47,835 bases of DNA from assembly GCA_016781735.1 (NCBI GenBank), contig JADDPT010000133.1:1-47835 (forward strand). The letters are read 5' to 3'. Origin of the DNA: Rubrobacter sp. GTDB taxonomy: Bacteria; Chloroflexota; Chloroflexia; Thermobaculales; Thermobaculaceae. The position numbers and the translations under genes are program-made. Shown piece after piece: positions 39,498 through 47,333 of the stretch (positions are counted from its first letter, which is position 1; every line of letters begins with the position of its first letter). The notes beneath the pieces were generated by a model, which saw only the letters and a program-made list of their open reading frames with translations, was not told the DNA's origin and did not search any database.

Positions 39498-40223
39498 GTG
39501 ACAGCGGAGAGCCTGCCATTCTGCCGTGAATGCGGCTACAAGCTAGGCGATGCGAGGTTCTGTCCTCGGTGCGGCACACCTCGCAGGACAGCAACCACAC
39601 AGGCTCCTGTGCCTACTGAGCCTGCAAGCTCCGAGATGCCGCCGGTGCCTGATGAACCGACAGTCACAGCAGTGCCGCATCATCACTCAGGCTCCGACGC
39701 CTACCAACGACCGCAACCTACTCAGCCACACGGCGCGGAGCGAACTGCGCAGATTGCCGCCGATAATCGCAAACTTCTCAGCGTAGCGGTTGGAGCATTC
39801 TTACTCCTGCTGCTGATCGGCGTTGTGGCGAGTCCGTTCATTGATTCCGACGCAGGCTCTGGTGCTTCCGCCCGATGTGACGATGTGCCATCGGAGGTAG
39901 TCGACATTCCCTCCACCGGTCTGGCGGTGACCGGAGGCGGGAGCGTGCGGTCAGTCAAGGCAGTGAGCTCGACGGATTATCAGAAGGTATGGTTTGTCAG
40001 CGCCGAGCTGGAAGGACCGGGACTGGAGGGCAACGGCGACATAGGGACGTGGACGACCAACAGCCTCGATCCAGCTAAGCCCGCCGGATTCCTCGCGGTC
40101 GACTCGATAGCCAATCAGTTCTCCAACTGGACTGATGGGCGCAAGGCGAACCCGCGGTTCGGAATGGGCGATGACGGAGCGGAGGAATCGCGAGGCTGCA
40201 TCGGGTGGCTGTCTGCCGAATAG
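39498..40223 (+). CDS. Zinc-ribbon single-pass membrane protein with extracytoplasmic domain
   Basis: A 241-residue protein. Residues 7-32 form a zinc ribbon (PFCRECGYKLGDARFCPRCG). A Pro/Thr/Ser-rich linker leads to one membrane helix (about 93-113, LLSVAVGAFLLLLLIGVVASPF). The remaining 125 residues would be outside: a cysteine pair (SARCDDVPS and RGCIGW) and a strand-rich part containing YQKVWFVSAELEGPG. The extracellular part resembles small domains found after zinc-ribbon/TM heads in actinobacterial and chloroflexal proteins, but I cannot name the family. The GTG follows GGGAGGTGCC at good distance. Probably translated with the 96-residue gene upstream. Confidence 0.62.
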   Translation: MTAESLPFCRECGYKLGDARFCPRCGTPRRTATTQAPVPTEPASSEMPPVPDEPTVTAVPHHHSGSDAYQRPQPTQPHGAERTAQIAADNRKLLSVAVGAFLLLLLIGVVASPFIDSDAGSGASARCDDVPSEVVDIPSTGLAVTGGGSVRSVKAVSSTDYQKVWFVSAELEGPGLEGNGDIGTWTTNSLDPAKPAGFLAVDSIANQFSNWTDGRKANPRFGMGDDGAEESRGCIGWLSAE

Positions 40224-40279
40224 TCAGGAGCTCCGCCGGTCGTGGCGCGCGGTGCTCCACCGCGCAGTATGATAGGCAC

Positions 40280-40990
40280 ATGGAAGATGACGCGGTTAGC
40301 GAGGGCATAGTTGTAAGCGGACGATTCAGGCTGGAGCGCGAGTTAGGTAGGAGCGACGGCGTGAGGGTATATCGCGCCCACGATATCAAGGAAGACGAAG
40401 TCGTTGGTGTGACGGTGTTCCTCGACCCGCCAATCGTGGCTGAGCCTCCTGAGCCGCGACCATCAGGCTTTCACGGTCTGCCGTTCCGGGACTATCTGGG
40501 TCTGGCGCGTCTATCCGACTTTGGATCGCACAGCCGTATGCGCCTCGGTCAACGCAGAGGTGAGATCGTTCAGACTGGTCACGGCTATGATCGCGGCGTC
40601 GCCTACGTTGCGTGGTTCGTGTTCCCACGCGTGCTCCTTCAGCCGCACCGTCAGGACAACTTCTCGCTATCCACGCGGAGGGCGCTCCTACGAAAGGCAG
40701 GCGGGCGGTGTGAGCTATGTGGATCAGACGATGGTGTGCAAGTTGACCACATCGTCCCGGTCGCACACGATGGCACCGCCGATCCGGACAACGGCATGGT
40801 GCTGTGCTCTACTTGCCATCGCGCCAAGTCGAAGGTGCAGGCGCGCTGCCAAGTGTGCCTGCGACCTGGGCGGCAGCGGGATGCGCCGTACTATGTGACT
40901 TACGCCGCAAGAGAGTACGGTCCGTTCGACTCGCTGAAGGCGGCGTGGTACATGGTAACAGTCCGTGCCAAGGAGTTGATCGGGATGTAG
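40280..40990 (+). CDS. HNH endonuclease with degenerate protein-kinase N-lobe at its N-terminus
   Basis: A 236-residue protein. The C-terminal part has a full HNH site: zinc-binding CELCG, then VDHIVPVAHDG, DPDNGMVLCSTCHRAKS (about residues 148-190), followed by another C-x2-C (CQVCL). This supports nuclease activity on DNA. The first 45 residues read GRFRLERELGRSDGVRVYRAHD...VVGVTVF, which lines up with the start of bacterial Ser/Thr kinases (GRYRLERELG-x-GGMG-x-VYRAHD...VAVKVL). The glycine loop has lost its second and third Gly and the ATP-binding Lys is Thr, so this piece cannot be a kinase. The link between is about 90 residues of low similarity to anything I know. The ATG at 40280 lacks a strong ribosome site. 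Confidence 0.75.
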   Translation: MEDDAVSEGIVVSGRFRLERELGRSDGVRVYRAHDIKEDEVVGVTVFLDPPIVAEPPEPRPSGFHGLPFRDYLGLARLSDFGSHSRMRLGQRRGEIVQTGHGYDRGVAYVAWFVFPRVLLQPHRQDNFSLSTRRALLRKAGGRCELCGSDDGVQVDHIVPVAHDGTADPDNGMVLCSTCHRAKSKVQARCQVCLRPGRQRDAPYYVTYAAREYGPFDSLKAAWYMVTVRAKELIGM

Positions 40991-42929: not shown

Positions 42930-43118
42930 CTACCCTCTAGGTCCCTGCGGCGTATACTCACCGGCAAGCCAGCGTACGAACGTCTCTGAGCGACTGACGT
43001 AGGTTTCAACCGAGTTGTCGCGTAGTCCCGCTGCTCGCAACTCATCTCGGAACCGAAGCAGCTCCCTCTGCAGGTCTCTTACCGTCCAGCACGGCTCCCT
43101 GCTTCCCGACTGCTTCAG
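42930..43118 (-). CDS. Small core-binding (SAM-like) domain protein, 62 residues
   Basis: The minus-strand frame directly after the NMAD3 stop encodes LQRELLRFRDELRAAGLRDNS, then VETYVSRSETFVRWLAGEY and a PQGPRG end. The pattern FR-x2-L-x2-AGL-x2-(N)S(V)xTYV-x-RS-x-x-F-x-RWL is that of the N-terminal core-binding domain of tyrosine recombinases, found alone as small proteins in many high-GC genomes. No catalytic domain is present. The start is unclear: no ATG/GTG/TTG precedes the conserved part; a CTG at 43118 has GGAGG 8 bases before it and is taken here. It lies 18 bases after the NMAD3 stop, so it is probably co-translated. Confidence 0.6.
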   Translation of the reverse strand: MKQSGSREPCWTVRDLQRELLRFRDELRAAGLRDNSVETYVSRSETFVRWLAGEYTPQGPRG

Positions 43119-43136
43119 TCGATATACCTCCAGCTG

Positions 43137-43856
43137 TTACTCCAGCGACCGAACAAATGCGGCTGCACGGTCGGTGAACTCTGGCGTCACCCAGCGCGGA
43201 GGACTGCGCTGGATACTGTTCTGCCCGCCGAAGCCACCAAACACCTCGCGCATCTCCTGTGACAGGACCTTGAGAGGCTTGCCCGCCTTATCCTGCCCGA
43301 CATCGCTTATGCGCCTTGCCTTCTTCAGTAGGCGGCTCTCATTGGAGCCCTTCACCAGCACCAGCCGGTCTCTCTGGTCGGCGAACACGGAGGGATGCCG
43401 CACGTGGTAGTTGCCTCCAAAGAGAGTCTGCAGCTCCTCGCCTGTGAACTGCGTCGCCTTGCCGGCTACGGCTACCTCGAAGTATCCGACTATATAGAGC
43501 GCCGGCTCACACGGGAAGTCCCAGCCTCTGAGACCTGCATAGAAGACGATCAGGTCGCCCGTTTGGAGGTGTTGCAGTCTTCGCTTCGGCTGTGTCGGGT
43601 CGCCATAGGTGTACGTCTCGAACTCCGGGTCCACGTGCATCGACTGGCTCGCCCTGAGTGCCTGGCGCGACTTCGGGAAGTACTGGACGAGCGGTGTTCC
43701 GTGCCTGCCTACCGTGTTGCCGTATGTCCTCTCATCCAGTCCAAACCCGTCAGGTATAGGGATGAACTCGAAGGAGCCGTCCTCGAACAGCGGTCCGTCG
43801 GTGCCGCCCGACGCTGCTGCCGCATCCACTCCGACTCTGAGCAGTACCACCTTCAT
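43137..43856 (-). CDS. NMAD3-type nucleotide-modification-associated protein
   Basis: A 239-residue protein. It opens with MKVVLLRVGVDAAAASGGTDGPLFEDGSFEFIPIPD, which has the G-x-D...GPLF-x-DG-x-F-x-IPIPD signature of Nucleotide modification associated domain 3. The mid-part LQTGDLIVFYAGLRGW and YIVGYFEVA are also typical, with a late NYHVRHPSVFADQRDRLVLVKGSNESRLLKKA. The domain was predicted from gene neighbourhoods to work with DNA base-modifying systems; its activity is not known. The ATG overlaps the NMAD2 stop by four bases (ATGA), so the two are coupled. It is followed by the small core-binding protein gene. Confidence 0.78.
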   Translation of the reverse strand: MKVVLLRVGVDAAAASGGTDGPLFEDGSFEFIPIPDGFGLDERTYGNTVGRHGTPLVQYFPKSRQALRASQSMHVDPEFETYTYGDPTQPKRRLQHLQTGDLIVFYAGLRGWDFPCEPALYIVGYFEVAVAGKATQFTGEELQTLFGGNYHVRHPSVFADQRDRLVLVKGSNESRLLKKARRISDVGQDKAGKPLKVLSQEMREVFGGFGGQNSIQRSPPRWVTPEFTDRAAAFVRSLE

Positions 43857-44617
43857 AGACCGTCGGCTCCGACGAGGTGCATGAGGAAGTCGTCAAGGCT
43901 GCCATATGTGTAGGGACGAGGCACATTGAAGGACACACTAATAAGTGGATGATCCCATAGGAAGGTCTGCTCTGGATCGCCAACCAGTAGCGACGGCGGG
44001 CGCAGCGACTGCTTGGCGTACACGATGTCGTTGCGCCATGCGTACGAATCTGTGTGTGAGTGCTGCTTGCAAGGAGGTATATACGATGCGGGATCGAGCG
44101 GCTCGCCTGGCGACGGCTTAGGGCGGTAGAGGTCGCCAAGGCGGTGGAGGTCTGCAGCCTTCGCTTCTCTGACGTCCTCGGGCAGCGCGTCCCACATCTC
44201 TGCGTGAGACCCGCATGCCTGCTTCACCTGCATCAGGTAGACGAGATAGTACCTGCCGTCTCCAACGGCAGGTATACCGCTAAATCCCGCCAGCCACCGC
44301 CCTTCCCACGAGCGTGAGTCGACGCTAGTACGCATCCGATGCTTGCACGTACAGAGCGTCACCATGCCGCCCTGGAAGTTGGGTGCAGAACCATCGTGCA
44401 GGAATCGTCCACCCTTGTACTTCACAGTCGCTATGACGTAACGGTGCACTAGCGCCTCGCTCGGAGTGACGTGCTTCCGGAGCGTGTCGACACCAAGATT
44501 CAGGCGGCTAGGCGACCATCCAGGTGGAGGCAGAGGCTGGAAGCGATCAGTATCTACGCACGTTTTCTGTGCGTCCGCTATCTCCTCGGACACAGTGGTA
44601 GAACAGCTAGGACACAT
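43853..44617 (-). CDS. NMAD2-type nucleotide-modification-associated protein
   Basis: A 254-residue protein. MCPSCSTT starts with a C-x2-C, then after about 60 residues HRYVIATVKYKGG, TLCTCKHRMRTS and WLAGFSG appear, followed by PSLLVGDPEQTFLWDHPLISVSF and YGSLDDFLMHLVG near the end. This order fits Nucleotide modification associated domain 2; a C-x-C-K and a PPCKQH motif add possible metal ligands. No other function is apparent. The ATG is preceded by AAGGAGGAGCAG, the strongest ribosome site of the island. It begins the NMAD2-NMAD3-core-binding run on the minus strand, facing a plus-strand gene at 44746. The assignment is from pattern recall and should be checked. Confidence 0.65.
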   Translation of the reverse strand: MCPSCSTTVSEEIADAQKTCVDTDRFQPLPPPGWSPSRLNLGVDTLRKHVTPSEALVHRYVIATVKYKGGRFLHDGSAPNFQGGMVTLCTCKHRMRTSVDSRSWEGRWLAGFSGIPAVGDGRYYLVYLMQVKQACGSHAEMWDALPEDVREAKAADLHRLGDLYRPKPSPGEPLDPASYIPPCKQHSHTDSYAWRNDIVYAKQSLRPPSLLVGDPEQTFLWDHPLISVSFNVPRPYTYGSLDDFLMHLVGADGL

Positions 44618-45461: not shown

Positions 45462-47156
45462 CTAGCCCAGATCCAACGCCGCCTGCTCCGCGTCCGAGAC
45501 GCGCACACGCTGCGCCTCCTTGAAGGTGCCGTGTGCCGGCGGCATCTTGATCTCGCCACCATGGAGTAGCTGGTTGATGGTGAGGATTTGAATCTTCGGG
45601 TAGTCTCGGTTCCAGCCGGGCGAGTGATAATAGCCAGCGGTAACGGCTTCAGTGGTCATGTCTCGGCTAGGCTCCTCCAGCGTGATGAACACGCCGATGG
45701 CTGCTCCCTCGCGCTCCACTGTGCCTCTCAGGTCGCGGATGTCGCCGCTCTTCACATGCCCACTCTTTACCTGCACAAGAACTCGCTTCGGCTTGCCGCT
45801 GCCATCGTCTACGAAGTTAATGACTCCGTCAATGCCCTTGTCCGATCCCTTCTTGCCCGTCTTGCCGCCGTCGCCGCCGAGCGGCTTCGCCTTCACGAGC
45901 GATAGTGCCCACCACTGGAACTGGTAGCGGTCATCCTGAGCGAGCTGTCGGGCAGAGCCTACGTCCTCCGGCTCACCGATCACCTGGAACTTGGCGTCCG
46001 GGAACATCGCGCACAGGCGGTAGCGCATCAGCGCAATGGCGAGGTGGGTAATATCAATGCCGATCCATCGGCGACCAAGCTTCTGTGCGGCGGCTACGGC
46101 TGTACCGCAGCCGCAGAACGGATCGAGAACCACGTCACCAGGATTGCTGCTAGCTTGGATGATTCGCTCTAGGAGAGCGAGCGGCTTCTGTGTCGGATAA
46201 CCCAGTCGTTCTCTCGACTGTGCTGCGACAGGCGGTATATCATTCCACACATCTTGAACCTCGACGCCGCCCATATCATCAAGGTACTGCTTGAAGGATG
46301 GCACTCCACCCACTTTCGCCGGCCAGAGCACTCTACCTAATCGGTCTAACTCGTCGAGTGCCGCCTGCACATCGGCAATTGGTTTGTCCTGAAAGAGATG
46401 GCGTACGTAACCTGGAATTGCCCAGTGCCTTCCGCTCTTGTTTGGATCAATGCCGCGCCAGGGCTTGCCTGATGAGCCGGTTCGGGTTCCGGAGCCAGTG
46501 AGAATGGTCGAGCGATACCTCCGTCCATCGGAATCTCTGAACCTGAAGAAGGACTCGATGTATTCCTCTGAATATGGCACGCGCTGCACATTCCAGGTAC
46601 ACGCGTCGCTCTTGGCATAGTGGAGTAGAACGTCGTGAACCGCGCCATATCGGCGCCCTCCGCTGTGCGCGTGCGTTCGCTTCCAAATGACCTCATTCCT
46701 AAAGCTAGTCGGACCGAATATGGCATCAAGCAGAATCTTGAGGTAGTGACTCGCGGTAGGGTCGCAGTGCAGGTAGATGGAGCCCGTCAGCTTGAGGACT
46801 CTATTAAGCTCCACCAGCCGCACAGCCATCATCACTAGGTAAGCCATCATCTCGTTGGTGCCGACGAGTGTACGTAGAGCAGAGATCATCTCCGAGACGC
46901 GTGCAGGTGCGTCGGTCACCAGCTCGTGATACGTCCGCTCGGCTGCCTGCGTCCAGTGCCACGTGTCCTCAAACGCCTCGATCTGGGCATCACTGTACTT
47001 GCCACGCTCATCGCGGAACAGCACGTTGTAGTTGCGTGCCGAGTTGAACGGCGGATCGAGATAGATGAGATCCACGCTAGCGTCTGGAACGTACTGGCGG
47101 AGGATGTCGAGGTTGTCACCGTAGAAGAGGGTATTCTCCGTGATCGGCTGAGGCAC
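45462..47156 (-). CDS. Beta-class DNA methyltransferase fused to an Mrr-like nuclease domain
   Basis: A 564-residue protein. The methyltransferase has DPPF (motif IV, residues 34-37) before DPFCGCGT (motif I, about 345), the order of beta-class N6-adenine or N4-cytosine enzymes; DPPF favours adenine. The long middle holds the target-recognition region. After about residue 430 comes a KGIDGVINFVDD...RVLVQVKSG segment, with the Asp and the Q-x-K of a PD-(D/E)xK nuclease of the Mrr/restriction type. The two activities on one chain resemble single-chain restriction-modification enzymes. The GTG start at 47156 has AGAGGAGC with a 6-base gap; the frame runs 53 codons further up without features. 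NMAD proteins lie about 0.8 kb away on the same strand, separated by a plus-strand gene. Confidence 0.82.
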   Translation of the reverse strand: MPQPITENTLFYGDNLDILRQYVPDASVDLIYLDPPFNSARNYNVLFRDERGKYSDAQIEAFEDTWHWTQAAERTYHELVTDAPARVSEMISALRTLVGTNEMMAYLVMMAVRLVELNRVLKLTGSIYLHCDPTASHYLKILLDAIFGPTSFRNEVIWKRTHAHSGGRRYGAVHDVLLHYAKSDACTWNVQRVPYSEEYIESFFRFRDSDGRRYRSTILTGSGTRTGSSGKPWRGIDPNKSGRHWAIPGYVRHLFQDKPIADVQAALDELDRLGRVLWPAKVGGVPSFKQYLDDMGGVEVQDVWNDIPPVAAQSRERLGYPTQKPLALLERIIQASSNPGDVVLDPFCGCGTAVAAAQKLGRRWIGIDITHLAIALMRYRLCAMFPDAKFQVIGEPEDVGSARQLAQDDRYQFQWWALSLVKAKPLGGDGGKTGKKGSDKGIDGVINFVDDGSGKPKRVLVQVKSGHVKSGDIRDLRGTVEREGAAIGVFITLEEPSRDMTTEAVTAGYYHSPGWNRDYPKIQILTINQLLHGGEIKMPPAHGTFKEAQRVRVSDAEQAALDLG

Positions 47157-47333
47157 GTGTTGCTCCTCTCTCGCTGAGCCTATTCTAGCTCCAGAGACGT
47201 CAATTTGCGTGTCAGCCGCGTGTGCGTGAACGCTCTCTGTGTCAATATCCTCCGAGACATCGGGAAGGCAGCGGCTGCACGCAGAACCGTTCGTTGTGCT
47301 CGCCAACGGCGGCAAGCTCTAGCAGCCTCGGCG

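Follow-up and report, generated by a model that had tools for sequence, protein, structure and literature searches.

What do two overlapping genes for Nmad2- and Nmad3-type proteins do, and does a small reading frame directly behind them belong to the same unit? We asked this for a locus in a 47,835-nt stretch of a Rubrobacter sp. assembly (contig JADDPT010000133.1, positions 1 to 47,835; hereafter the window). A sequence-only reading of the locus had proposed that the run of three genes may modify bases of DNA. The Nmad names were reportedly introduced by Iyer and co-workers in 2013.

The overlapping Nmad2-Nmad3 gene pair

The first gene of the pair (43853..44617, minus strand) encodes an Nmad2-type protein of 254 aa, and the second (43137..43856, minus strand) encodes an Nmad3 protein of 239 aa. 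The 3' end of the Nmad2 gene (...TCTATGA) encloses the ATG of Nmad3, giving an ATGA overlap at positions 43856-43853. Promoter and terminator scans found nothing.

Using Pfam, we found the window's Nmad3 to match PF18754 with an E-value of 5.5e-29 and 102 bits (cut-off 27) over profile positions 1-226 of 247. Nmad2 narrowly misses the gathering cut-off of PF18753 (24.3 bits, E-value 2.6e-5; cut-off 26.1). The same PF18753 region is matched by six relatives of the window's Nmad2, two of them above the cut-off (36.4 and 39.7 bits), and hhalign comparison of two alignments, A1 with seven proteins of the window's Nmad2 branch and A5 with ten classical Nmad2 proteins, gave a probability of 96.7% and an E-value of 4e-10. 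Common to both alignments are a PN--G--TL--CK---R core and a later conserved His. Since there are relatives above the cut-off and the profile matches bona fide Nmad2, the Nmad2 label is, on sequence grounds, correct despite the sub-cut-off score, and the window's protein is a divergent, longer branch of the family (about 50 aa longer than classical Nmad2). The sequence-only reading was right about the ATGA coupling, in coordinates and overlap alike; its domain names also stand, that of Nmad3 far above the cut-off and that of Nmad2 through its relatives and hhalign rather than through its own score.

Within the window's Nmad2 branch, the alignment contains an invariant PNF-GG--TLCTCKH-MR-like core and an HxH motif; C89, C91, H93, H186 and H188 are invariant, and such residues could also belong to an active site or bind a metal. 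Neither protein of the pair was matched in PADLOC or NCBIfam, or significantly by a sequence search against the PDB, and direct comparison of the Nmad2 profile with the Nmad3 profile gave no relationship.

We note two other genes in the window. At 45462-47315 (minus strand) lies a gene for an N6/N4 DNA methylase with a C-terminal Mrr/NA-iREase1-like domain, possibly a fused restriction-modification protein, and an opposite-strand gene separates it from the pair. The gene at 40205-40990 (plus strand) encodes an HNH protein, the N-terminal part of which reads as a protein kinase fragment.

Recurrence of the pair and the third reading frame

We were able to identify the ordered Nmad2-Nmad3 pair, intact, in four other genomes from two bacterial groups and one archaeon: a Chloroflexi MAG (L004; 1-nt overlap), a Planctomycetota MAG (L006; ATGA overlap), a genome of the same phylum as the window (L040/G092; ATGA overlap) and a Nitrososphaerota archaeon (L007; 14-nt gap). 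The pair is broken in one more Planctomycetota locus (L005), where just the start of Nmad3 is left in frame. Another genome (G026) has the two genes on different contigs, Nmad2 at the end of its contig and Nmad3 at the start of its own, and probably carries a split pair. A second Nmad2, 69% identical, is found in the window's own genome at the end of contig C120, with the next gene beyond the contig edge.

The pair has a narrow distribution. None of the 60 nearest relatives has a window-type Nmad2. Out of 400 genomes from the phylum, only 3 gave strong matches to the Nmad2 branch, one of them being the genome of the window itself. Two other phyla gave 1 out of 392 and 1 out of 250 genomes, each being a genome already known to carry the pair. 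This rarity, together with the spread over phyla, points to horizontal transfer, and the pair is rare and probably mobile. Viral contigs yielded one Nmad3 relative (L066 4791-5729; the adjacent genes read as portal/terminase-like) and no Nmad2, and phage records yielded no relative of either.

Judging from the ORF lists, the other Nmad2-Nmad3 pairs are often embedded among housekeeping-type genes. No evident effector lies beside them, and no effector gene is conserved next to the pair. The Pfam-scanned neighbours of the window's pair include neither ThsB-TIR nor MazG_C, and no such genes could be made out from the ORF lists for the other loci with the pair.

The third reading frame (62 aa; 42930..43118, minus strand) begins 18 nt downstream of the Nmad3 stop with a CTG start codon, 8 nt upstream of which is a GGAGG. 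According to the codon usage of the window, its frame is the best of the six, with a score about equal to that of Nmad2. Among 158 genomes of the class, we found two clear solo homologues, one 55% identical (E-value 6.6e-14) and the other 47% identical (E-value 2.5e-12), whose open frames are 66 and 70 aa long, and a profile search added weaker, mostly solo relatives. Given the best-frame codon usage and the solo homologues, the ORF probably is a genuine gene and belongs to a small family. Its similarity to the core-binding (SAM-like) domains of tyrosine recombinases is weak: PF13495 (Phage_int_SAM_4) matches with an E-value of 0.025 and 15.4 bits (cut-off 27), and likewise weakly on two homologues (16.3 and 13.3 bits), while tblastn gave a match to a tyrosine recombinase with an E-value of 2e-3. 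Unlike those recombinases, the ORF stands alone, has no catalytic domain and scores below threshold, so the core-binding label is a weak one. A recombinase leftover was considered as well and set aside, because the close homologues are also solo and a search of the genome gave no matching recombinase.

Could the 62-aa protein steer Nmad2-Nmad3 to DNA, making the three genes one functional triplet? The 18-nt spacing on one strand, the coding-like ORF and the existence of solo homologues all agree with such a unit, and one homologue comes after a GmrSD_N-SLFN_AlbA_2 gene of 833 aa (L106 509-3274, minus strand). However, the remaining homologues occupy unrelated genomic places, the domain call is sub-threshold, and in no other Nmad2-Nmad3 locus that we found does a core-binding-like ORF follow Nmad3. 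We therefore regard the triplet as very unlikely, and until shown otherwise treat the 62-aa ORF as a passenger or local add-on to the pair. Of what had been claimed for this gene, the position is right and its being a gene is probable; the core-binding name falls short of the threshold, and a role as dedicated DNA-binding helper does not hold up, as the other pairs do without it and its homologues sit elsewhere. Shared gene order among relatives had been set beforehand as a test of the run: the pair recurs, whereas the triplet is seen in the window's genome only.

Fold of Nmad3 and genomic company of the two families

A structure of Nmad3 was predicted by AF2 from five sequences (pLDDT 60, pTM 0.61) and searched against the PDB by Foldseek. 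All 11 of the top 11 matches are EVE, ASCH, THYN1 or McrB N-terminal domains, although with weak E-values (best 0.013) and TM scores of at most 0.44, and no competing fold class appears at the top of the list. The matches include the EVE/UPF0310 proteins 2g2x, 2ar1 and 2p5d, as well as THYN1 and McrB N-terminal structures that were solved with modified DNA. Viral structural matches, where named, include EVE, ASCH and DUF3850 proteins. The best sequence-profile match for Nmad3 in the PDB was also an EVE protein, PH1033, at a non-significant E-value of 0.4. When Nmad3 was compared with a UPF0310-type EVE profile, none of 150 column shuffles scored as well, and a GD-hhFY strand was in register with EVE. 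Classical Nmad2 aligned to the same profile, with 1 out of 150 shuffles scoring equally well. With the branch to which the window's Nmad2 belongs, 80 out of 150 shuffles did so, meaning no direct similarity to EVE at the profile level; the AF2 model of this Nmad2, also from five sequences, had a pLDDT of 39 and returned nothing in the fold search. Based on the structural matches of Nmad3, the EVE profile shuffles and the alignment of classical Nmad2 with EVE, we conclude that Nmad3 is probably PUA-like, with moderate support, and that Nmad2 is possibly so.

PUA-like domains also bind RNA. The pair may thus act on RNA or free nucleotides, serving an ordinary cell process or forming a small toxin-type unit; ASCH proteins are among the structural matches of Nmad3, and the other pairs often sit amid housekeeping-type genes with no effector. 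An ASCH protein has reported RNase activity, according to a title cited in PMC7641849. We give this explanation little credence, as against it stand the very patchy distribution (0 out of 60 near relatives) and the location of Nmad2 relatives, which occur on plasmids and in neighbourhoods with restriction or TIR genes.

These neighbourhoods are of several kinds. On plasmids of several genera, a gene for a ThsB-type TIR protein lies directly upstream of classical Nmad2, which is followed by MazG_C and UDG genes or by a 5-hmdU kinase gene (L080 4521-7414; also L081, L082, L084 and L085); the TIR protein scores as ThsB in PADLOC, in which Nmad2 has no match. Chromosomal loci of classical Nmad2 also hold genes that, by reading the sequence, are thymidylate synthase-, dTMP kinase- and dCTP deaminase-like, and one Nmad2 comes directly after an Mrr nuclease gene. 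From the window's branch, a Variovorax Nmad2 that has no Nmad3 (L079 8941-13303) lies upstream of genes for a McrB-like ATPase (PADLOC PDC-M26A, E-value 3e-42) and DUF2357. The Nmad3 gene of pHG1 adjoins an Mrr-Zn-ribbon gene, with other defence genes nearby. On a haloarchaeal plasmid (L033 7182-11272), Nmad3 adjoins an AAA ATPase gene, and genes for QueC and a nucleoside deoxyribosyltransferase-like protein are near.

This company also bears on the proposed base modification of DNA by the run, in which Nmad2, with its invariant Cys and His, and Nmad3 would be the modifying enzymes or their subunits. The family name speaks for it, as do the genes of nucleotide chemistry (5-hmdU kinase, MazG_C, thymidylate synthase-like, UDG) beside classical Nmad2 and the invariant Cys/His of the window's branch. 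On the other side, the Nmad3 model resembles reader domains, the other pairs have no further evident modifying enzyme alongside, and the adenine methylase gene of the window is cut off from the pair by the opposite-strand gene. We find base writing unlikely: no modifying-enzyme fold was recovered, the Nmad3 model is reader-like (EVE/ASCH/YTH), and Nmad2 relatives occur with restriction and TIR genes.

A possible reader module

The two genes overlap, the pair recurs across distant phyla and is absent in close relatives, and Nmad2 relatives keep company with ThsB-TIR, MazG_C, UDG, McrB/DUF2357 and Mrr. We propose, with moderate confidence, that Nmad2-Nmad3 is a rare, horizontally moving module of PUA-like modified-base binders, most likely aiding restriction- or TIR-type defence to recognise foreign modified DNA or nucleotides. 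Nmad2 would share a fold related to that of Nmad3, and the two proteins, made via translational coupling, would act as one complex. The ligand of this recognition unit may be a modified base, and the end effect of recognition would be defence. As no effector is conserved beside the pair, the effector would be encoded elsewhere in the genome or be one of the two proteins themselves; for the same reason, Nmad2, in whose branch C89, C91, H93, H186 and H188 are invariant, may instead have an enzymatic role. The absence of a conserved neighbouring effector is the main weakness of the proposed reader role in defence. In a further version, which we consider improbable, the two proteins, produced as one coupled unit, would by themselves suffice to sense modified nucleic acid; their genes, exchanged between bacteria and archaea, would represent an undescribed type of defence that has no nuclease, TIR or methylase gene.

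Compared with known systems, the recurring pair looks like a variation on Nmad modules and reader-type modules already described. It resembles the classical Nmad2 operon (ThsB-type TIR, Nmad2, MazG_C, UDG or 5-hmdU DNA kinase) in having an Nmad2 family member with the PN--G--TL--CK---R core and the conserved His, but it carries Nmad3 in place of the TIR, MazG_C, UDG and kinase genes. In McrB-type restriction, modified-base readers such as EVE and YTH are known to provide the specificity (PMC7641849). Among known structures, the EVE/ASCH/YTH PUA-like readers (e.g. McrB N-terminal domains) come closest to the Nmad3 model, whose GD-hhFY strand lines up with EVE; in contrast to these, Nmad2 and Nmad3 are separate genes fused to neither McrB nor a nuclease, and Nmad3 has additional N- and C-terminal parts and weak similarity statistics. 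PIN-GNAT-EVE operons with a second, ASCH-type PUA-like protein (PMC7641849) likewise have two PUA-like proteins per operon, if Nmad2 is PUA-like, whereas the window's pair has no PIN, GNAT or AAA genes. In the DefensePredictor paper, an NMAD domain, which may be Nmad2, Nmad3 or another, appears in the legends of both phage-tested and predicted defence systems (PMC13092281). Our literature search, the scope of which did not extend to the 2013 Iyer paper, found no paper naming Nmad2 or Nmad3 as these domains, and an earlier published description of the pair or of the link between the two is possible.

Families called 'nucleotide modification associated' are usually assigned to pathways that write modified bases. 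Should Nmad3, and perhaps Nmad2 as well, prove to be reader domains, many genes that carry this label and lack an explanation would become candidate defence sensors, and the recurring Nmad2-Nmad3 pair would be a compact case that is open to simple binding and phage assays.
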